The position numbers were made by a program, and so were the translations under genes. The notes beneath the pieces are model-generated. The model worked only from the letters and a program-made list of their open reading frames with translations, was not told the origin of the DNA and made no database searches. A stretch of DNA of 12,741 nt from Phytoactinopolyspora endophytica. GTDB lineage: Bacteria > Actinomycetota > Actinomycetes > Jiangellales > Jiangellaceae. Location of the stretch: the NCBI RefSeq assembly GCF_004138495.1, contig NZ_ML142854.1:42251-54991 (forward strand), in the 5' to 3' direction. Positions 426-10,241 of the stretch are shown piece by piece; position 1 is the stretch's first letter; every line of letters begins with the position of its first letter.

Positions 426-2390
426 GTGACCAGCGACGCGCTCTCCAATCTGCTGCACGAAGACCGCCGCTTTCCGCCATCCCCGGAGTTCGCCGCTCAG
501 GCCAATGCCACGGATGCGCTATACGACGAAGCCAGAGCCGACCGGCTCGCGTTCTGGGACCGGCAGGCTCGTGACCTGCTGTCCTGGGAGCGGGAGTGGG
601 ACGAAGTACTCGACTGGAGCAATCCTCCGTTCGCGAAGTGGTTCACCGGCGGCCGGCTGAACGTCGCCTACAACTGTGTCGACCGGCACGTCGAGGCGGG
701 GAACGGCGACCGCGTCGCGATCCACTGGGAAGGCGAACCGGGCGACTCCCGGACGCTCACGTACGCTGATCTTCAGCGCGAGGTCAGCCAGGCGGCCAAC
801 GCCCTCACCGCCCTGGGTGTCGGGCACGGGGATCGAGTGGCGATCTATCTGCCGATGATCCCTGAGGTCGTCGTCGCGATGCTGGCGTGCGCGCGGATCG
901 GCGCCATCCACTCCGTGGTCTTCGGAGGGTTCTCCGCGGAGGCGTTGCGCAGCCGTATCGACGATGCGCAGGCCAAGCTGGTCATTACCGCCGATGGTGG
1001 CTTCCGGCGGGGTAAGCCCGCGGCGTTGAAACCCGCCGTCGACGAGGCCGTCGTGCGGTGCCCGTCGGTGGACAAGGTGCTGGTCGTCCGTCGGACTGAG
1101 CAAGAGGTGGACTGGGACGGTACACGCGATGTGTGGTGGCACGACATCGTGGACGCCCAGCCGGTGGACCACACGCCGGAGCCCCATGACTCAGAGGACA
1201 CGCTGTATATCCTCTACACCTCTGGCACCACGGGTAAACCGAAGGGCATCAAGCACACATCCGGCGGATACCTGCTGCAGACGGCGTACACGCACCGCAA
1301 CGTGTTCGACCTGAAGCCGGAGTCCGACGTCTACTGGTGCACGGCCGACGTCGGCTGGGTGACCGGCCATAGCTACATCGTGTACGGCCCATTGGCCAAC
1401 GGCGCCACCCAGGTCATCTACGAGGGCACGCCCGACTATCCAGAGCCTGGCCGGTGGTGGGACGTCGTCGAGAAGTACGGCGTGACCATCCTGTACACGG
1501 CGCCCACCGCCATCCGGACATTCATGAAGCAGGGTGAGGAGATCCCGGGCCGCCGTGACCTGTCGTCCTTGCGGGTTCTCGGTAGCGTCGGCGAACCGAT
1601 CAACCCGGAGGCGTGGATCTGGTACCGGCGCGTGATCGGCGGTGACCGCACGCCGGTGGTGGACACATGGTGGCAGACGGAGACCGGCGCCATCATGATC
1701 AGCCCGCTCCCCGGTGTGACGTCCGCGAAACCCGGATCGGCGCAGGTGCCGTTGCCGGGCATCGTCGCCGAGGTGGTCGACGACGCGGGCAACGTCGTTC
1801 CCGACGGGCACGGCGGCTACCTGGTGCTCACCGAGCCCTGGCCGTCGATGCTCCGCACTATCTGGGGCGACGACCAACGGTTCATCGACACTTACTGGTC
1901 GAGGTTCGAAGCGCAATACTTCGCCGGGGACGGCGCGAAAAAGGACGAGGACGGCGATCTCTGGCTGCTGGGCCGGGTCGACGATGTCATGAACATCTCC
2001 GGGCACCGCATCTCCACCACCGAGGTCGAATCCGCTCTGGTATCCCACGAGAAGGTGGCCGAAGCCGCCGTCGTGGGAGCATCCGACCCGACCACCGGAC
2101 AGGGCATCGTCGCGTTCGTCATCCTGCGCGCCGATGCCGGTGACGGCGGTGCGGACGTGGTGCAGGAGCTGCGTGACCACGTGGCGAAGGAGATCGGCCC
2201 GATCGCCAAGCCGCGGCAGATCCTCGTGGTCGTCGAGCTGCCCAAGACGCGGTCCGGCAAGATCATGCGGAGGCTCTTGCGGGACGTGGCAGAGAATCGC
2301 GAGCTCGGCGACGTCCAGACGCTGGCGGATCCGACGGTGATGAACCTGATCAGCGCGGGCTTAGCGTCGAGCGCCTCAGACGACGAGTAA
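426..2390 (+). CDS. acs: Acetyl-CoA synthetase (AMP-forming)
   Basis: Cytoplasmic acetate--CoA ligase: acetate + ATP + CoA gives acetyl-CoA + AMP + PPi, through an acetyl-AMP intermediate. The 654 residues match the usual length (about 650). Visible in order: an N-terminal ACAS_N segment ([13 protein letters not shown], roughly residues 63-75); the ATP P-loop [11 protein letters not shown] at 264-274; the A5 motif DTWWQTETG at 413-421, whose tryptophans fit the small acetate pocket; the A8 hinge region [13 protein letters not shown]; and the C-terminal [11 protein letters not shown], whose K612 is the adenylation-step lysine that Pat-type enzymes acetylate in this family. The GTG start is supported by GAGGAG at 412-417, 8 nt upstream. 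Codon 646 is a rare TTA leucine. A strong hairpin follows the stop, so it is probably transcribed alone. The neighbouring acetate transporters and sensor genes support the substrate. Confidence 0.97.
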
Positions 2391-2588: not shown

Positions 2589-3791
2589 ATGAGTTCGTCG
2601 GTGGCCGTCGTAGGCGTCGTGGTGGTGCTGGCCGTGCTGGCGGCGGTGCTGCTGGTCCGGCTGGTCCGGTCGCGTCTGGTGCTGGGGACGACGGAGAACC
2701 AGACTACGTACCGGGTGCTGCACACCACCAGCCTCGCCTCGCCCGAGTTACGCTCCGGGCTCAGCGCGGGTGCCGAGCGGGCCGTGAAGCACCTGCGTGA
2801 CTTGCTCGCCACACCCTCACTGGCGCTCACCGATGGTGAAGGCGTCCTGGCATGGGATGGGGTTGGCAGGGTGCACGCCGCGGATGTGGATCGGCATGCC
2901 GCTATTGCGCTCGAGGTGGGCAAGACCGAGGTGCTCGGGCCGGAAGCGATCGCGTGTGAACGCGACGACTGCTTGGTGCGCCATGCGGTCGTGACCGCGC
3001 TGACCACTGAGGATCGGGTGGTGGGCGCGCTGGTGGCGTATACGACGGCGCGGCCGTCAGCTGGGTTGGTGCGGGCCGTCGAGGAAGTCGCGAGGTTCGT
3101 GTCCGGCCAGCTGGAGCTCGCGGGGTTCGACCGGGAGCGGGCGAAGCTCGCGGAGGCCGAGATCCGTGCGCTGCGGGCGCAGATCTCGCCGCATTTCATC
3201 TACAACGCGCTCGGCGCGATCGCGTCGTATGTCCGTTCCGAGCCGGAGCACGCACGCGAGCTGTTGCTGGAGTTCGCCGACTTCACCCGCTACTCGTTCC
3301 GCCGGCACGGAGATTTCACAACGCTGGCGGAGGAGCTGCGCTCCGTCGAGCGCTACCTGATGCTGGAGAGAGCCAGGTTCGGCGATCGGCTATCGGTCAC
3401 GCTGCGAGTGGCGCCGGAGGTGCTCCCGGTGGCGGTGCCGTTCCTGTGCCTGCAACCGCTGGTGGAGAACGCTGTCCGGCATGGCCTGGAGGGCCGATCC
3501 GGCGCCGGGCACATCACGATCATCGCGGAGGACGCCGGCAACGAGGCGCTGATCAGTATCGACGACGACGGGCTGGGCATGGACCCGGAGCTGGCCCGCG
3601 GGTTGCTGGCCGGGGGGAGCGACGGCGAGAAGGTCGGCATCGGCAACGTCGACGAACGGCTGCGCGCGGTGTTCGGTGAGGAGTACGGGCTGGTGATCGA
3701 GACCAACGTCGGCGCCGGAACACGGGCACGCATGCGGGTGCCGAAGTACCGCCCCGGCGTACGCGCTACCCCACCTGCTACCCCTAAATGA
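2589..3791 (+). CDS. LytS-type sensor histidine kinase
   Basis: Membrane-anchored histidine kinase of the LytS/YehU (His_kinase, PF06580) class, the class that pairs with LytTR regulators. Residues 4-26 form one hydrophobic anchor. Residues about 45-175 look like a GAF-type sensor domain and carry a cysteine pair, C123 and C128 (CERDDC). A short helix leads to the phosphoacceptor motif QISPHFIYN with H202. The ATPase part has the N-box VENAVRHG (N294), the DDDGLGM box (325-331), GIGN (350-353) and a terminal GAGTRARMRVP strand. The ligand is unknown; the setting suggests acetate, pyruvate or a related state. It converges on the operon encoding a LytTR regulator, its likely partner, with 10 bp between stop codons. 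Codon 54 is TTA. Function as a kinase is sure, ligand and partner are inferred. Confidence 0.93.
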   Translation: MSSSVAVVGVVVVLAVLAAVLLVRLVRSRLVLGTTENQTTYRVLHTTSLASPELRSGLSAGAERAVKHLRDLLATPSLALTDGEGVLAWDGVGRVHAADVDRHAAIALEVGKTEVLGPEAIACERDDCLVRHAVVTALTTEDRVVGALVAYTTARPSAGLVRAVEEVARFVSGQLELAGFDRERAKLAEAEIRALRAQISPHFIYNALGAIASYVRSEPEHARELLLEFADFTRYSFRRHGDFTTLAEELRSVERYLMLERARFGDRLSVTLRVAPEVLPVAVPFLCLQPLVENAVRHGLEGRSGAGHITIIAEDAGNEALISIDDDGLGMDPELARGLLAGGSDGEKVGIGNVDERLRAVFGEEYGLVIETNVGAGTRARMRVPKYRPGVRATPPATPK

Positions 3792-3809
3792 TCATGTTCA
3801 TTTAGGGGT
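3780..3809. terminator. Bidirectional terminator holding both stop codons
   Basis: ACCCCTAAATGA (3780-3791) and its exact reverse complement (3798-3809) flank a 6-nt loop: a 12-bp perfect stem, extendable by pairs at 3777-3779 with 3810-3812 including one wobble. The TGA of the kinase (3789-3791) lies in the left arm and the TAA of the minus-strand symporter (3802-3804) lies in the right arm. It is AT-richer than its surroundings and can work in both directions for these convergent genes. Confidence 0.85.
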
Positions 3810-5562
3810 GGCGCCAGCGGTCTTCGGGGTCCCAATCGCCGCGGTCGAGGTCGAGGTTCTCGGGCGTGTGCAGCCGGACCATGGTGCGGTCCACCCCCGG
3901 CGCGACGTGTCGCTGGGTCAGTAGCGACACCACGATCATCACGGTGAAGGTCATCGGCATCGACCAGGCGGCCGGCTGTGCCAGCAGCGCACCGAGCCAC
4001 CCGTCCTGCGGTCCGAGCACGATGGTCGTCGTGACGGCCGCGGTGGCGGCGCCGCCTCCGGTGATCAATCCGGCCACCGCGCCCGGCCAGGTCAGCCGGC
4101 GCCACCAGATGCCCAGGACGAGTAGCGGGCAGAACGACGACGCCGCGACCGCGAACGCCAGGCCCACGACGTCGGCGATGCTCAGCGTCGGGCTCGACAG
4201 CGCCAGGCCGACAGGTATCAGCAGGGCCAGCCCGGCGCCGAGCCGGAATCCTGTCACCGGGTTGCGCACCCGCCGCCCCAACAGATCCTGGGAAAGCACT
4301 CCGGCCACCGAGACGGTCAGCCCGGAGGAGGTCGATAGGAACGCGGCGAACGCGCCCGCCGTGATGAGAGCGGTCAGCGCTTGCCCCGCGGCGCCGTCGA
4401 CCAGTTCTCCCGGCAGGATCAGCACGACGGCGTCGGTCCTGCCGGTGAGGAGCAACTCCGGCGTGTAGAGCCGGCCGAGTGCGCCGTACAACGGAGGCAA
4501 CACGTAGAACAGGCTGAGCAGGGCCAGCACGGTCAGGGTGGTCCGCCGTGCCGCCCGGCCGTCCGGGTTGGTGTAGAAGCGGACCAGCACGTGCGGCAGG
4601 CCCATGGTGCCGAAGAACAGCGCCAGGATGAGCGAGTAGGTCGAGTAGAGCGGATGGTCGCCGCCGGAACGCATCGGCAGTGCCCAGTGCTCGCCGCTCA
4701 TCGGGGTCAGCTGCGAGGCGTGCGGGATCTGCGCGCCGGCCGGGAACGTCAGTACTGACCCCGCGGTGATGTCGTGCTCGCCGGAGGTCAGAGTGAGCTC
4801 GTCGTCGATGGGCTCGCCGTCGATCGTTCCATCGGCGCGGACGGTGACCGGATCGGTGACGTCGATCGTGACATCGGTGGTGATCTCGACGGCCGTTCTG
4901 TCGGTGAAGGCCGGTTCCTCCGGCGTCGCCAGCTCGGGGCGGCCGTCGGACTGCCAGGCCAGGAGTATGAAGACGACGGGCAAGGCCAGCGCCGTGAGCT
5001 TGAGCCAGTACTGGAACGCCTGGACGAACGTGATACTGCGCATGCCGCCACCGAGCACGCTGACCAGCACCACCGCCGCGACCACCACCGGGCCCACCCA
5101 CGCGGGCGCACCCGTGACAGTGCGCAGGGTGAGCCCGGCCGCCTGGAACTGGGGCAACAGGTAGAGCCAGCCGATCGCCACCACGAGCACGCTCGAGGTG
5201 AGCCGTACGACCGTGGACTCCAGCCGGGCCTCGGCGAAGTCCGGCAGCGTGTACGCCCCAGACCGGCGCAGCGGCGCCGCCACCAGTACCAGGAGCATCA
5301 GGTACCCGGCGGTGTAACCGACCGGGAACCACAACATGTCGGTGCCGTACGCGAGCACCAGCCCGGCGATTCCCAGGAATGACGCTGCCGAGAGGTACTC
5401 ACCGCCGATGGCCGACGCGTTCCACCATGGTGTCACTGTCCGGGACGCCACGTAGAAGTCGCCGGTGGTGCGCACGGCCCGCACACCGTACATGCCGATG
5501 AGTATCGTGGCGATCGCGGTGACGATCACCGCTGCCATGCCGGCCGAGCTGTTCGCGGTCAC
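3802..5562 (-). CDS. Sodium:solute symporter, ActP-like, with extracytoplasmic insert
   Basis: Integral membrane transporter of the SSS family (SLC5 type), predicted to bring acetate or another short monocarboxylate in with a cation. Family signatures: DFYVASR near residue 35, GGEYLSAASFLGIAG (53-67), GTMGLPHVLVRFYT (318-331, the ActP hallmark) and STSSGLTVSVAGVLSQD (410-426), which covers the sodium-site serines. Many hydrophobic helices fit the usual 13. Unlike the second symporter in this window, it has about 100 residues (203-302) between two helices, rich in T, D and V and probably beta-structured, most likely outside the membrane. The tail (LHTPENLDLDRGDW) is acidic. At 586 residues it is longer than canonical ActP (about 535-550). 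The GTG start overlaps the preceding gene's stop by 4 nt (GTGA), so translation is coupled. The exact substrate is inferred. Confidence 0.9.
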   Translation of the reverse strand: MTANSSAGMAAVIVTAIATILIGMYGVRAVRTTGDFYVASRTVTPWWNASAIGGEYLSAASFLGIAGLVLAYGTDMLWFPVGYTAGYLMLLVLVAAPLRRSGAYTLPDFAEARLESTVVRLTSSVLVVAIGWLYLLPQFQAAGLTLRTVTGAPAWVGPVVVAAVVLVSVLGGGMRSITFVQAFQYWLKLTALALPVVFILLAWQSDGRPELATPEEPAFTDRTAVEITTDVTIDVTDPVTVRADGTIDGEPIDDELTLTSGEHDITAGSVLTFPAGAQIPHASQLTPMSGEHWALPMRSGGDHPLYSTYSLILALFFGTMGLPHVLVRFYTNPDGRAARRTTLTVLALLSLFYVLPPLYGALGRLYTPELLLTGRTDAVVLILPGELVDGAAGQALTALITAGAFAAFLSTSSGLTVSVAGVLSQDLLGRRVRNPVTGFRLGAGLALLIPVGLALSSPTLSIADVVGLAFAVAASSFCPLLVLGIWWRRLTWPGAVAGLITGGGAATAAVTTTIVLGPQDGWLGALLAQPAAWSMPMTFTVMIVVSLLTQRHVAPGVDRTMVRLHTPENLDLDRGDWDPEDRWRHP

Positions 5563-5921
5563 CTCCGGCCCACCATCTCGGCGAAGTCACGTTCGATCCG
5601 CTCCGCGTGCCGGACATAGAACCACGCCGCCGTGATCAGGACGGGGTAGACGGCACCGCCGAGCACCACCCACGGGAGCGGAACGCCGAGGAGCTCGAGG
5701 TCGGTCAGCCGTGGCGCGAACGTGAACGCCAGCGGCACCAATGCGACCAACCCGAACACCACACCCGCCACGGTCAGCCCAAGACGCAGCTGAGCCCGCA
5801 GCAGCGCCCGCATGTACACCTCGCCAAGCTGCGTCTGCGCGTCGATCTCGGCGGCGACGGCCTGCCGGCGGGCACGTGGCCGCCGACGGCGGGGCCCGGT
5901 GACCGTGACCCGTTCCGTCAT
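5559..5921 (-). CDS. Small DUF485-like membrane protein, symporter partner
   Basis: A 120-residue protein with a very basic N-terminus (RRRRPRARR, 11-19), a likely cytoplasmic helix (about 22-45), two membrane helices (about 47-69 and 80-102) and a charged tail (HAERIERDFAEMVGRR). Size, topology and position directly before an ActP-like gene match DUF485 proteins, which commonly precede actP in bacteria (E. coli yjcH-actP). Primary-sequence similarity to DUF485 is loose, so the family call rests partly on context. Its start overlaps the regulator stop by 4 nt (ATGA) and its stop overlaps the symporter start by 4 nt. Its biochemical role is unknown; a role as symporter accessory is inferred. 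Confidence 0.8.
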   Translation of the reverse strand: MTERVTVTGPRRRRPRARRQAVAAEIDAQTQLGEVYMRALLRAQLRLGLTVAGVVFGLVALVPLAFTFAPRLTDLELLGVPLPWVVLGGAVYPVLITAAWFYVRHAERIERDFAEMVGRR

Positions 5922-6649
5922 CGCAGATCGCCGGACTCACGGACGAGTAGGTCGCGGAATGCCCGGGTGTGCCGCCGGCTCACTGGGAGAACGGTGTCCC
6001 CGACGACGACGGTGTAGCGGCCTGCGTCCATGCGGATCTCGGAGACGTGCGCCAGAGCCACCAGATGGCTCCGGTGGATCCGGACGAACCCGGCGTCCGC
6101 CCACCGTTCCTCCAGCGTGGACAGCGGTATTCGGAGCAGATGGCTGCCATCGCCGGTGTGCAGCCGCGCGTAGTCGCCCTGCGCGGTGACGTAGCTGACG
6201 TCGCTGCGCCGCACGAAGCGTGTGACGCCGCCGAGCTCGACCGGGATGGTCTCGTCGTCGGGATCGTCCCCTGCAGCCTGCTGGCCCTCGACTGTGCCCG
6301 CCGCTCGCCGGATCGCTTCCGCAAGCCGCTCCGGGCGCAACGGTTTCATGACGTAGTCGACCGCGTGCAGGTCGAACGCGTCGACGGCGTGGTCGTCGTA
6401 CGCGGTGACGAAGACAACGGCCGGCCGGTGACGGAACTGCGCGAGAACACGCGCCAGGTCCAGCCCGGAGAGTCCCGGCATCCGGATGTCGAGGAACACG
6501 GTGTCGACCCGCTCGCGCTCCAGAATCCGCAGCGCGTCGGCGCCGTCGGACGCGGTCAGCACATGTTCGACCCGGTCGTCCCGTCCCAGCAGATAGGCAA
6601 GCTCCGCCAGGGCTGGGGGTTCGTCGTCGACCGCGAGAACGCTGAGCAT
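5918..6649 (-). CDS. LytTR-family response regulator
   Basis: DNA-binding response regulator, the likely partner of the LytS-type kinase at 2589-3791. The receiver domain (1-120) has the acidic pocket D8/D9, the phosphoacceptor D54 (VFLDIRMPG), T82 and K102 (VMKPL). The LytTR DNA-binding domain covers about 138-240, with VRIHRSHLVAL and LPVSRRHTR as its typical motifs. It is the first gene of a three-gene operon with 4-nt overlaps. No Shine-Dalgarno sequence precedes the ATG; a -10 box 7 nt upstream suggests a leaderless message. A LytTR-type direct repeat adjoins the -35 box, so it probably controls its own operon. Close relatives by domain set include E. coli BtsR and YpdB. The family call is certain; the partner and targets are inferred. 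Confidence 0.95.
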   Translation of the reverse strand: MLSVLAVDDEPPALAELAYLLGRDDRVEHVLTASDGADALRILERERVDTVFLDIRMPGLSGLDLARVLAQFRHRPAVVFVTAYDDHAVDAFDLHAVDYVMKPLRPERLAEAIRRAAGTVEGQQAAGDDPDDETIPVELGGVTRFVRRSDVSYVTAQGDYARLHTGDGSHLLRIPLSTLEERWADAGFVRIHRSHLVALAHVSEIRMDAGRYTVVVGDTVLPVSRRHTRAFRDLLVRESGDLR

Positions 6650-6656
6650 GCCGGTG

Positions 6657-6686
6657 AGAGTAGCCCTGAGACGACTCGCTTGTCAG
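6657..6686 (-). promoter_or_regulatory. Promoter of the regulator-DUF485-symporter operon
   Basis: On the minus strand, CTGACA (6681-6686; 5 of 6 to TTGACA) is separated by 18 bp from TACTCT (6657-6662; fits TANNNT). Seven bases then lead to the ATG of the response regulator at 6649, so the start of transcription should fall at or just before the start codon (leaderless). This is the best-looking promoter in the window. Confidence 0.7.
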
Positions 6687-6687
6687 G

Positions 6688-6717
6688 TCCGTTCGTCGCA
6701 CTGGTTCGACCGCTCGT
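6688..6717 (+). promoter_or_regulatory. Predicted LytTR operator (two 9-bp direct repeats)
   Basis: TCCGTTCGT (6688-6696) and ACCGCTCGT (6709-6717) are separated by 12 bp, 21 bp start to start, two helical turns. The LytTR consensus [TA][AC][CA]GTTN[AG][TC], known as paired 9-bp repeats with about 12-bp spacing, is matched 9/9 and 8/9. The second repeat also resembles the E. coli BtsR half-site ACCGCTCA. The site begins 1 bp from the -35 of the regulator promoter, a position suited to activation, and lies about 147 bp before the divergent DUF485-actP start. Confidence 0.7.
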
Positions 6718-6741
6718 CGTCAGGGCGCGGTCCGCGTGGCG

Positions 6742-6782
6742 ACCGGCGAGGCCCTTTCACCGCATCTCACCGGCAAGGCTCT
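6742..6782 (+). repeat. 14-bp imperfect direct repeat in the divergent promoter region
   Basis: ACCGGCGAGGCCCT (6742-6755) and ACCGGCAAGGCTCT (6769-6782) agree at 12 of 14 positions, 27 bp apart start to start. Between them TCACCG also recurs at a 10-bp step (6757 and 6767). These could be sites for a second regulator of the divergent operons. No known consensus was recognised. Confidence 0.4.
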
Positions 6783-6811
6783 CCCGCACGATCCCGGCCG
6801 CGCCTAGCGTG

Positions 6812-6845
6812 ACGGACCACAAGCGGCCATGTGATACGGGCCACA
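6812..6845 (+). repeat. 10-bp direct repeat before the DUF485-actP operon
   Basis: ACGGACCACA (6812-6821) and ACGGGCCACA (6836-6845) agree at 9 of 10 positions, 24 bp apart. They flank GTGATACG (6831-6838), where a -10-like element might lie, so they could bracket the core promoter of the plus-strand operon. Confidence 0.35.
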
Positions 6846-6852
6846 CCACGAC

Positions 6853-6859
6853 GAGGAGG
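6853..6859 (+). promoter_or_regulatory. Ribosome binding site fixing the DUF485 start
   Basis: GAGGAGG, 4 nt before the GTG at 6864. It decides against the alternative in-frame GTG at 6831, which lies upstream of it. Confidence 0.75.
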
Positions 6860-6863
6860 TCGC

Positions 6864-7217
6864 GTGAGTAGTCTCGACAGTCCGACGCCGGAACCGGCTG
6901 TGCCGACGGCGTCGGAGTACGAGCGGATGCAGGCAAGCCCGGAGTTCGCCGAGCTGCGACGCAGGTTCCGGGCGTTCGCTTTCCCGATGACCGTGGCGTT
7001 CATCGCCTGGTACTTCATGTATGTGCTGCTGTCGACGTACGCCGTCGGCTTCATGTCCACGAGCGTCTTCGGCAACGTCAATGTCGGCGTCGTGCTCGGC
7101 CTCGGGCAGTTCGCCTCGACCTTCCTCATCACCTGGCTGTACATCCGGCATGCCAACAGCAGGCTCGACCCCGTCGCGACCCGCATCCGCGAGGAGTTGG
7201 AAGGGGGCAGCGCCTGA
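6864..7217 (+). CDS. DUF485 membrane protein, ActP partner
   Basis: A 117-residue inner-membrane protein of the DUF485 family (E. coli YjcH type). The hallmark is seen at about 24-60: SPEFAELRRRFRAF followed by a first helix containing FPMTVAFIAWYFMYVLLSTYA; a second helix lies at about 74-94, followed by RHANSRLDPVATRIREELE, which stays cytoplasmic. The GTG at 6864 is chosen because GAGGAGG lies at 6853-6859; an in-frame GTG at 6831 has no such site and would add an arginine-rich stretch foreign to the family. The stop overlaps the actP start (TGATG), so the two are co-translated. The molecular role of DUF485 proteins is unsettled; their constant pairing with actP suggests an accessory subunit or helper. 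Confidence 0.9.
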   Translation: MSSLDSPTPEPAVPTASEYERMQASPEFAELRRRFRAFAFPMTVAFIAWYFMYVLLSTYAVGFMSTSVFGNVNVGVVLGLGQFASTFLITWLYIRHANSRLDPVATRIREELEGGSA

Positions 7218-8824
7218 TGGACATCGGCAGCCCTGGCGTCAACATCGCCATCTTCGTGATCTTCGTCGTCGCGACCCTCTTCATCGTGCTGCGGGTCGCC
7301 GGCACCAACAAGACGGCCGCCGACTACTACGCCGGAGGCCGGGCGTTCACCGGCCAGCAGAACGGCACGGCGATCGCCGGAGACTACCTTTCGGCAGCGT
7401 CGTTCCTGGGTATCGCCGGCGCCATCGCCATCTACGGATACGACGGCTTCCTCTACTCGATCGGCTTCCTGGTCGCGTGGCTGGTGGCGTTGCTGCTCGT
7501 CGCCGAGCTGCTGCGGAACACCGGCCGGTTCACGATGGCGGATGTCGTGTCGTTCCGGATGCGGCAACGGCCCGTCCGCACAGCCGCATCGACGTCGACG
7601 CTGGCGGTGTCGTTCTTCTACCTGCTGGCGCAGATGGCCGGGGCAGGCGGCTTGGTAGCGCTGCTGCTCGGTGTCGAAGACGAGGGCGGCCAGGGCGTCG
7701 TCATCGCCGTCGTCGGTGCCATCATGGTGTTCTACGTCCTGGTCGGCGGGATGAAAGGCACCACCTGGGTGCAGATCATCAAGGCGATCCTGCTGATCGC
7801 CGGGGCCGGCGTGATGACCGTCTGGGTCATGGCGAAGCACAACTTCGATCTCTCGGAGCTCATGGGCGCGGCTGTCGACCGCGCGGGCGGCGCGGAGGGG
7901 CTGTTGGAGCCGATGAACCGGTACGGTGTCAGCGGGACGTCAAAGCTGGACTTCATCTCGCTCGCCCTGGCCCTGGTGCTCGGCACCGCCGGATTGCCAC
8001 ACGTGCTCATGCGTTTCTACACGGTTCCCACAGCCAAGGCGGCCCGACAGAGTGTGACCTGGGCCATCGCGTTGATTGGGCTGTTCTACCTGTTCACGCT
8101 GGTGCTGGGGTACGGCGCGGGCGCCTTGGTCGGTCCAGAGGAGATCGCCAGCGCACCGGGAGGCGTCAATTCCGCGGCGCCCCTGCTCGCCTACGAACTC
8201 GGCGGGACGTTACTGCTCGGCATCATCTCGGCGGTGGCGTTCGCGACGATTCTTGCCGTGGTTGCCGGTCTGACCATCACGGCATCCGCGTCGTTCGCGC
8301 ACGACATCTACGCCAACGTCATCAAGAAGGGCGAGGTCAAGGCGGACGATGAGGTGCGGGTGGCCCGCATCACGGCGGTGGTGATCGGAGCAGTGGCGAT
8401 CGGCGGTGGCATCCTGGCCAACGGCCAGAACGTCGCGTTCCTGGTGGCGCTCGCGTTCGCCGTGGCCGCGAGCGCGAACCTGCCGGTGATTCTCTACTCG
8501 CTGCTCTGGAAGCGGTTCAACACGAGCGGGGCGCTCTGGAGCATCTACGGTGGACTGGCCACCGCGGTGACCTTGATCGTCTTCTCTCCCGTGGTATCTG
8601 GAAAGCCGGTGGACCCAGCGACGGGGAGCAGCACCTCGATGATCCAGAACGTCGACTTCCATTGGTTCCCGCTGGACAACCCGGGCCTGGTCTCCATCCC
8701 GGCCGGCTTCCTCTTCGGTTACCTCGGAACCCGGCTGTCGAAGGAGTTCAACGCCGCCAAATACGCCGAGATGGAGGTGCGGTCCCTGAGCGGCGCGGGC
8801 GCGGAGAAGGCGACACAGCACTGA
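7217..8824 (+). CDS. actP: Cation:acetate symporter
   Basis: SSS-family permease (535 residues, the normal ActP length) expected to import acetate and similar short monocarboxylates with sodium or protons. Family marks: TAADYYAGGRAFTGQQNG (33-50), GDYLSAASFLGIAG (55-68), YLLAQMAGAGGLVALLLG (135-152), GTAGLPHVLMRFYTVPTAKAAR (256-277), AGLTITASASFAHDIYANV (350-368) and FHWFPLDNPGLVSIPAGFLFG near the C-terminus. About 13 hydrophobic helices are visible. It starts inside the DUF485 stop (TGATG). It is a closer match to characterised ActP/MctC-type carriers than the minus-strand symporter. Codon 332 is a rare TTA leucine. A long hairpin follows the stop. Assignment to acetate rests on family likeness and the acs/sensor context. 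Confidence 0.94.
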   Translation: MDIGSPGVNIAIFVIFVVATLFIVLRVAGTNKTAADYYAGGRAFTGQQNGTAIAGDYLSAASFLGIAGAIAIYGYDGFLYSIGFLVAWLVALLLVAELLRNTGRFTMADVVSFRMRQRPVRTAASTSTLAVSFFYLLAQMAGAGGLVALLLGVEDEGGQGVVIAVVGAIMVFYVLVGGMKGTTWVQIIKAILLIAGAGVMTVWVMAKHNFDLSELMGAAVDRAGGAEGLLEPMNRYGVSGTSKLDFISLALALVLGTAGLPHVLMRFYTVPTAKAARQSVTWAIALIGLFYLFTLVLGYGAGALVGPEEIASAPGGVNSAAPLLAYELGGTLLLGIISAVAFATILAVVAGLTITASASFAHDIYANVIKKGEVKADDEVRVARITAVVIGAVAIGGGILANGQNVAFLVALAFAVAASANLPVILYSLLWKRFNTSGALWSIYGGLATAVTLIVFSPVVSGKPVDPATGSSTSMIQNVDFHWFPLDNPGLVSIPAGFLFGYLGTRLSKEFNAAKYAEMEVRSLSGAGAEKATQH

Positions 8825-9008: not shown

Positions 9009-9617
9009 ATGGGCCAGAACGTCAAGGTCGCGGTCATCTACTACAGCTCCACGGGGAATGTGCACGCGCTCGCCAATGGCGCCGTAGAAGGAGCCGAGAA
9101 GGAAGGCGCCGAGGTGAGGCTGCGCCGCGTGGCGGAGCTCGCCCCGGCTGAGACGGTCGCCTTGAAACCTGAATGGGCCGGTCACGCCGATGCGACGCGG
9201 CATATCCAGGAAGCGGGCGTCAACGACCTGATCTGGGCGGATGCGGTTCTGTTCGGAACGCCCACCAGGTACGGCGTCATGGCAAGTCAGCTCAAGCAGT
9301 TTATCGACACTACCGGCCCGATCTGGGAGAAGGGACTGCTCTCCGACAAGGTCTACTCCGCCTTCACCTCGACCTTCACCAATCACGGGGGCCAGGAGAG
9401 CACGCTGTTGTCCTTGTACAACGTCGTGTACCACTGGGGTGGCGTGATCGTGCCACCCGGCTACACGGATCCCGTCCAGTTCGAACTGGGCAATCCCTAC
9501 GGGACAGCTCACATCAGCGGCGACGGCTCGCCCGCCGACGTGCACTTGCGGACCGTCCGCTACCAGGCCGCCCGTGCAACCGTCATAGCGCGGGCGCTCA
9601 AGCAGGGGCGCAACTGA
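9009..9617 (+). CDS. WrbA-type NAD(P)H:quinone oxidoreductase
   Basis: Cytoplasmic FMN flavoprotein of the WrbA/flodoxin family, which reduces quinones by two electrons with NAD(P)H and is usually tied to redox stress. The 202 residues match the family (about 200). Seen: the FMN phosphate loop YYSSTGNVHALA (11-22), the flavin-contact segment GTPTRYGVMASQLKQFID (83-100), and the family segment TFTNHGGQESTLLSLYNVVYHWGGVIVPPGY (about 121-151). The ATG has GAAAGG at 8995-9000, 8 nt upstream. A nested dyad lies in its promoter region. It is probably a single-gene unit: a hairpin separates it from actP and it converges with the response regulator 18 bp further on. wrbA may be its name, but paralogues are common, so no symbol is given. 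Confidence 0.92.
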   Translation: MGQNVKVAVIYYSSTGNVHALANGAVEGAEKEGAEVRLRRVAELAPAETVALKPEWAGHADATRHIQEAGVNDLIWADAVLFGTPTRYGVMASQLKQFIDTTGPIWEKGLLSDKVYSAFTSTFTNHGGQESTLLSLYNVVYHWGGVIVPPGYTDPVQFELGNPYGTAHISGDGSPADVHLRTVRYQAARATVIARALKQGRN

Positions 9618-9635: not shown

Positions 9636-10241
9636 TTACATCCAGCCCGCCTCGGTCGCGATCCGGATCGCGTCGATGCGGTTGCGCGCGCCGAGCTTGC
9701 TGATGGCATTCGACATGTAGTTCCGCACCGTCGCCGGTGAAAGCGAGAGCTTGACCCCTATCTCCTCGGTGGTGAATCCCATGGTGGCCACCTTGAGCAC
9801 GTCGGTCTCTCTGATGGTCAGCGGATTCGCGCCGGTTTGCAGAGCTGCGGTCAACAATCTGGGATCGATGACGCGCTCATCCCTCATCACACGGCGGATG
9901 GCCTGGGACAGGGCGTCTGCCGGCGCGTCCTTCATGAGGAAGCCCTGCGCACCTGCCTGGAGCGCCCGGAGCAGGTGGCTCGGCTGGCTGAGTCCGGTGA
10001 GGATGAGGACACGGCAGGCCGGCACGGTGTCGGCCAGGGATTCCGCGGCGGAAAGGCCATCCAGGCCCGGAAGGTCGATGTCCAGGAGGGCGACGTCGGG
10101 CTGGGTACGCAACGCTGCCTGCTGAACCTCGTCGCCTCGTTCCACTTCGGCCACAACCTCGAGGTCGTCCTCGGTGCAGAGCAGGGCCACCAGTGCACCA
10201 CGGATCATGTGCATGTCTTCGGCTATCAGCACTTTGATCAT
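9636..10241 (-). CDS. NarL/DesR-type response regulator
   Basis: Two-component regulator of 201 residues. The receiver domain (1-118) has E8/D9, phosphoacceptor D54 (VALLDIDLPG), T82 and K104 (FLMKD). A LuxR-type helix-turn-helix covers about 137-197 (LTIRETDVLKVA, TTEEIGVKLSLSPATVRNYMSNAISKLGARNR). The ending EAGWM is typical of DesR-like regulators in actinobacteria. Such genes usually follow a DesK-type kinase directly; here the nearest kinase fragment is 2.3 kb upstream on the same strand, beyond two oxidoreductase genes. The ATG is preceded by a G-run (GGGGGGA) that lies very close, so translation initiation is not obvious, but the alignment of MIKVLIAED to the family supports this start. 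Target genes cannot be told. Confidence 0.94.
   Translation of the reverse strand: MIKVLIAEDMHMIRGALVALLCTEDDLEVVAEVERGDEVQQAALRTQPDVALLDIDLPGLDGLSAAESLADTVPACRVLILTGLSQPSHLLRALQAGAQGFLMKDAPADALSQAIRRVMRDERVIDPRLLTAALQTGANPLTIRETDVLKVATMGFTTEEIGVKLSLSPATVRNYMSNAISKLGARNRIDAIRIATEAGWM

Follow-up and report, generated by a model that had tools for sequence, protein, structure and literature searches.

The direct repeats at 6688-6717 of the window, the whole stretch of 12,741 bases analysed here, are a real conserved DNA element present in many actinobacteria. We consider it likely that they are the two strongest half-sites of a predicted operator array of the DUF485-actP1 (mctC) operon, under a BtsR-like regulator. 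The prediction of a LytTR-type operator is well supported by conservation, co-occurrence and linkage, and the BtsR-like regulator probably binds the array. A literature search by title and start of abstract found no DUF485-actP1 operator of this kind.

Gene content of the window

The window carries acs (+), a LytS-type kinase gene (+), actP2 (-), DUF485b (-), the LytTR regulator gene (lytTR, -), an intergenic region of 214 bp, DUF485a (+) and actP1 (+), in this order:

426..2390, + strand: acs, acetyl-CoA synthetase (ACAS_N, AMP-binding, AMP-binding_C)
2589..3791, + strand: LytS-type histidine kinase (His_kinase, HATPase_c; no 5TMR_LYT match)
3802..5562, - strand: actP2, second SSS-family transporter (PF00474, E 1.3e-47; SSF match in two stretches)
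5559..5921, - strand: DUF485b, small membrane protein, DUF485/DUF4212-like, below Pfam cut-offs (DUF485 21.8 of 28 bits)
5918..6649, - strand: LytTR response regulator, BtsR-like (PF00072, PF04397)
6864..7217, + strand: DUF485a, DUF485 protein (PF04341, E 4.8e-35), with GAGGAGG at 6853-6859
7217..8824, + strand: actP1, MctC-type monocarboxylate symporter (NCBIfam MctC equivalog NF058657, 878 bits, cut-off 670)

The first-pass annotation had described two acetate-type symporters. Both transporter genes are there, but their label changes: actP1 lies above the MctC cut-off and is therefore better named a monocarboxylate transporter, and actP2 reached no named NCBIfam family at its cut-off (264 bits for the VC_2705 family, cut-off 320.75). 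Among the named NCBIfam families listed, the regulator scored best with BtsR (NF008677), at 160 bits and thus below the cut-off of 246. The 5TMR_LYT domain was absent from all six actinobacterial kinases tested and strong in both E. coli kinases. In 68 of the 80 named loci, no more than 3 kb separated actP2 from lytTR.

The repeat pair belongs to a longer half-site array

The repeats read TCCGTTCGT at 6688-6696 and ACCGCTCGT at 6709-6717; they are direct and separated by a spacer of 12 bp. Scored against the LytTR consensus [TA][AC][CA]GTTN[AG][TG], TCCGTTCGT matched at 9/9 positions and ACCGCTCGT at 8/9, so that the layout and scores of the first-pass annotation were reproduced. The 9+12+9 arrangement fits the LytTR-type operator rule on repeat and spacer length, given in PMC4847170 as two direct repeats, each about 9-11 nt long, around a spacer of 11-13 nt.

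Neither strand of the 12,741 bases held a second pair of at least 17/18 (each half at least 8, 21-bp step), and such a pair arose in 1 of 4,000 first-order Markov sequences modelled on the 214-bp intergenic region. Across the 7.6-Mb genome, WCCGYTCGK-N12-WCCGYTCGK without mismatch had a single occurrence, the window site. When up to two mismatches were allowed, the same genome gave 56 matches against 60 for a reversed-pattern control, without excess. Only the best matches are therefore informative, and no wider regulon is claimed.

In the window the repeats reach past 9 bp (GWCCGYTCGTCG), and the 9-bp repeats are two members of a longer half-site array, listed here with the elements that follow it:

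6688..6700, + strand: half-site 1, TCCGTTCGTCGCA, the first repeat (6688-6696) with a conserved extension; 12/13 to ACCGYTCGTCGCA
6709..6721, + strand: half-site 2, ACCGCTCGTCGTC, the second repeat (6709-6717) with its extension; 11/13 to ACCGYTCGTCGCA
6731..6743, + strand: weak half-site 3, TCCGCGTGGCGAC, at offset 43 in the family
6752..6764, + strand: half-site 4, CCCTTTCACCGCA, 11/13, one base off the 21-bp register in the window genome
6805..6810, + strand: putative -10 box TAGCGT of DUF485-actP1, kept as TA[CG][CG]GT in the family
6830..6845, + strand: CRP-like palindrome TGTGATACGGGCCACA, in the expected leader

The array profile was obtained by scoring 15 family sequences (the window and 14 others) against ACCGYTCGTCGCA. 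Mean matches were 12.6/13 at offset 0, 12.8/13 at offset 21 and 11.1/13 at offset 63, over a background of 5.0 ± 1.5 of 13; the peak at offset 43 was weak (mean 9.7/13, minimum 8). The distance from half-site 1 to the TA[CG][CG]GT box was 117 bp in 13 of these 15 sequences and 116 or 118 in the remaining two. This fixed phase between half-site and -10 box therefore argues that the array would act on the DUF485a promoter. That promoter has a conserved -10 without a good -35, and the half-sites lie near -129, -108 and -65 relative to a start expected at ~6817. A generic sigma-70 promoter and terminator scan of 6400-7000 reported neither.

The palindrome TGTGATACGGGCCACA follows the expected start of DUF485-actP1 and precedes its ribosome site. 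CRP-like matches were found at offset 141-144 in all 15 family sequences, and the strict form was present in 4/38 named loci (0.01 expected). For a palindrome downstream of the expected start, repression would be the simpler guess.

The pair is conserved upstream of DUF485a

The regulator was detected in 16 of the 22 genomes of the window's family (E <= 1e-60) and in 137 of 296 genomes sampled from its class (E <= 1e-55). The first-pass annotation had proposed an alignment of genomes with the same divergent arrangement, in search of paired repeats at a 21-bp step. All 16 regulator-bearing family genomes, own included and in both gene orders, carried a forward pair of 17-18/18 at 146-151 bp upstream of DUF485a. 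In the 14 family genomes outside the window's genus, lytTR, DUF485b and actP2 share the kinase strand, as do DUF485a and actP1 in 13 (the fetched stretch of the other, L045, ends before them). Since the site is kept upstream of DUF485a and is absent before lytTR in this other gene order, the repeat goes with DUF485a-actP1. Extra pairs elsewhere were seen in two of 15 family loci (L033 at 11541, L040 at 1783).

A similar picture was obtained with 80 named loci. This set overlaps the others, since L077 and L078 belong to genomes already in the family set and at least L108 is also part of the class sample. Step-21 pairs were present in 48 of the 80, against 5 to 18 for other steps from 12 to 32. 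Where DUF485a was present, a forward pair lay within 400 bp in 36/38 loci and a reverse pair in 0/38, while other steps gave no more than 6 forward. Self-matching of the named loci without any motif also peaked at step 21 (10.74 vs 8.45 ± 0.27). Upstream of the other genes, forward pairs were found at lytTR in 0/79, at the kinase in 1/75, at acs in 2/14, at DUF485b in 3/71 and at actP1 in 2/38; reverse pairs were found at lytTR in 4/79 and at the kinase in 1/75. Conservation beside the regulator promoter was thus not observed in the named loci, divergent layouts excepted. Nor was step 21 a peak upstream of lytTR in 17 named Streptomyces loci, where it scored 8.47 and steps 57, 45 and 12 were the best of the others. 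A pair at L047:7450, which overlapped the beginning of an open frame, was considered fortuitous.

The pair follows the regulator and its linkage to actP1

In the class sample, actP1 was present in 143 genomes: 16 of the family, 126 scored and one, G053, left unscored at a contig edge. One actP1 copy was scored per genome, second copies being left out; the consensus used had been chosen with the family sites already known. The 126 scored loci were composed of 93 (G007 from the family, the other 92 from outside it) and 33 further regulator-bearing loci, whose addition lowered the share of pairs from 44/58 to 58/91. In the first pass, where the regulator search scored only part of its candidates, the pair occurred in 58/91 loci with the regulator (E <= 1e-55) and in 5/35 without (p 8e-7, a statistic that ignores kinship). 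A deeper search detected the regulator in all five exceptions, four of them through two matches set apart by a long linker and one as a protein 47% identical. The pair was then counted in 63/96 loci with and 0/30 without the regulator (p 2e-11, kinship again ignored), five loci having been moved into the regulator-bearing group once their sites were known. Of the 30 loci left without, eight were searched deeply (none at E <= 1e-16) and 22 by the first search only. In G126, G163, G204 and G243 (genus g67), the receiver and LytTR parts of the regulator ortholog gave separate matches, as though a long linker lay between them; G126, G204 and G243 also have a further half-site 28 bp on.

Linkage explains much of the remaining presence and absence. 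With regulator and actP1 within 30 kb the pair was present in 54/60 loci, and otherwise in 4/31, the five moved loci being left out. Six linked loci lacked the pair (G070, G133, G125, G108, G033 and G055). Strong pairs were present in 3/31 non-linked loci (G064, G157 and G184); chance may account for the weak pair in G236 (16/18). Within the single genus g9, the pair was present in 6/6 genomes with the regulator and 0/7 without (p 0.0006, ignoring kinship). In genus g24, none of 18 genomes had a pair upstream of DUF485-actP1; all 18 have both genes by the first search, unlinked according to their coordinates. Regulator presence alone therefore does not predict the pair. Control steps among the 58 regulator loci scored as well (step 28 in 18, step 42 in 20), partly because some arrays have further half-sites at these distances.

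The candidate regulator promoter and the divergent layouts

On its other side, the array meets a candidate promoter of the regulator operon:

6681..6686, - strand: -35-like CTGACA of the lytTR promoter, separated from the repeat by one base; kept in G002
6657..6662, - strand: -10-like TACTCT of the lytTR promoter, 18 bp after CTGACA

The first-pass annotation had built on this proximity, placing the repeat 1 bp from the -35 of the lytTR operon, and as sequence it holds (CTGACA, minus strand, 6686-6681). Between TACTCT and the ATG at 6649 lie 7 bp, so that a leaderless lytTR promoter is likely. The corresponding -10-like box is TACCCT in G002, the sole other genome of the window's genus with a divergent layout, and TAGCCT, TAACCT or TAATCT at roughly the same place in other family loci. 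Family members of the other gene order carry a TAGCCT-like box before the lytTR ATG and no repeat there. Compared with the other family order, the lytTR-DUF485b-actP2 block of the window and of G002 is inverted, and its promoter therefore adjoins the operator.

Divergence of a kinase-regulator operon from DUF485a-actP1 was found in 7/93 loci checked, five in one genus (G217, G131, G288, G209 and G110) and two in another family (G280 and G023). The site of these loci stands at a distance of 30-70 bp from the start of the kinase gene and of 104-161 bp from that of DUF485a, the latter start being estimated. Most have a TANNNT-like box a few bases before the kinase start; in G023 the site is within ~6 bp of this box, which would suit repression. 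The divergent layout recurs, but the regulator-side geometry varies.

Accordingly, we weighed the proposal of the first-pass annotation that the array chiefly autoregulates the lytTR-DUF485b-actP2 operon and so sets the ratio of the two symporters. The good -35-like box abutting the site, kept in G002, and the shared-operator layout of seven other genomes from two families speak for it. As a main role it is nevertheless improbable: pairs upstream of lytTR amounted to 0/79 forward and 4/79 reverse in the named loci, a pair within 100 bp of lytTR was confined among the first 30 loci to two genomes, both of the window's genus, the repeat points away from lytTR, and the other divergent genomes differ in the distance to the regulator-side gene (30 to 70 bp). 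What stands of the autoregulated switch is a possible added role in divergent layouts, in the window and seven other genomes.

A real array might also be bound by another protein, either a paralogous LytTR protein (contig C7) or a member of another family. The intergenic region of the paralogue itself has similar half-sites with a 21-bp step, and cross-binding is therefore conceivable. We regard this as very unlikely, since the pair follows the linked regulator (54/60 linked loci vs 0/30 without the regulator; 16/16 family genomes with this regulator) and half-site type and step match those of a LytTR regulator. Finally, a chance match in GC-rich DNA, to which the degenerate consensus and the level of two-mismatch matches in the reversed control would lend themselves, is negligible given the Markov frequency of 1/4,000 and the same placement in 16/16 family genomes and 36/38 named loci.

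In the paralogous system, lytTR is ~42% and the kinase 41% identical to those of the window, and half-sites at a 21-bp step lie between its two symporter operons. Such sites were located at L071 9814-9965 (own genome, contig C7), L073 4915-5013, L074 4980-5079, L075 2622 and L076 14047-14144, on one strand in L075 and on both strands in the other four.

Comparison with known systems

The predicted DUF485-actP1 operator resembles that of E. coli BtsS/BtsR (YehU/YehT), where a LytS-type kinase and a LytTR regulator likewise go with a site facing a monocarboxylate importer. The btsT (yjiY) site, ACCGCTTA-N13-ACCACTCA, has the half-site type, the 21-bp step and the forward orientation of the window array. 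In the work of Kraxenberger (2012), the BtsR motif is reportedly ACC(G/A)CT(C/T)A, in repeats 21 bp apart. Compared by eye with this 8-nt motif, half-site 2 (ACCGCTCG) differs at 1/8 positions and half-site 1 (TCCGTTCG) at 3/8. The E. coli pair is contained in an oligonucleotide named YehT binding site in PMC4847170, and btsT also needs CRP according to PMC7730263. The two systems differ in several respects: the window target is an SSS/MctC transporter with DUF485 whereas that of E. coli BtsR is CstA-type, the window kinase is without the 5TM domain of BtsS, the window array has three to four half-sites, unlike btsT, and the window regulator, 33% identical to E. coli BtsR, is below the BtsR cut-off.

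Among other systems, Corynebacterium glutamicum MctC belongs to the same NCBIfam transporter family as actP1. Its known regulators, by contrast, are GlxR, RamA and RamB. E. coli YpdA/YpdB (PyrS/PyrR)-yhjX is again a LytS/LytTR pair, to whose regulator that of the window is 32% identical. Tandem direct repeats and a pyruvate response are ascribed to it in PMC4847170; the yhjX repeat given there, GGCATTTCAT, differs from the window-type ACCGYTCG. In the SLC5/STAC kinases (CrbS/CrbR, MxtR/ErdR), a kinase and an SLC5-type protein are likewise linked to acetate or pyruvate genes (PMC9100948, PMC5715377). Kinase and symporter domain form one fused protein there, whereas the window has separate genes and a LytTR-type regulator.

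A model for control of DUF485-actP1

In the model that we favor, the LytS-type kinase would phosphorylate the BtsR-like LytTR regulator, which would bind the direct half-sites ACCGYTCGTCGC spaced at a 21-bp step. This step equals two helical turns and the half-sites therefore face one side of the DNA. Bound regulator may then help RNA polymerase at the promoter with the -10 box at 6805-6810. Uptake of acetate, pyruvate or similar acids would thereby be tied to the signal, itself probably such an acid, a monocarboxylate, by analogy with BtsS/BtsR. Where the regulator operon is divergent, in the window's genus and two other families, its promoter also borders on the operator, which may mediate autoregulation.

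The model gives a LytTR two-component system an operator code that can be tested, the operator being kept, with few exceptions, where regulator and importer adjoin. Half-site type, step and orientation are common with E. coli BtsR, which suggests one DNA code across phyla; the comparison further suggests that transporter family and sensor changed while the shared code stayed. The divergent layouts offer a natural test of how rearrangements could place a regulator under its own operator.

More tentatively, the sensor itself could be split. The actP2 product has an insert of ~100 residues between its two SSF stretches, and actP2 and DUF485b adjoin the regulator in most loci. It is conceivable, though doubtful, that ActP2 senses the acid and signals to the kinase, whereupon the regulator would fill the phased array and switch MctC on. 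If true, this would be the unfused counterpart of the SLC5/STAC kinases, with a BtsR-like DNA code in Gammaproteobacteria and Actinomycetes.

Downstream of actP1, the window also carries a WrbA-type NAD(P)H:quinone oxidoreductase gene (9009-9617) and a gene for a NarL-like response regulator (9636-10241).
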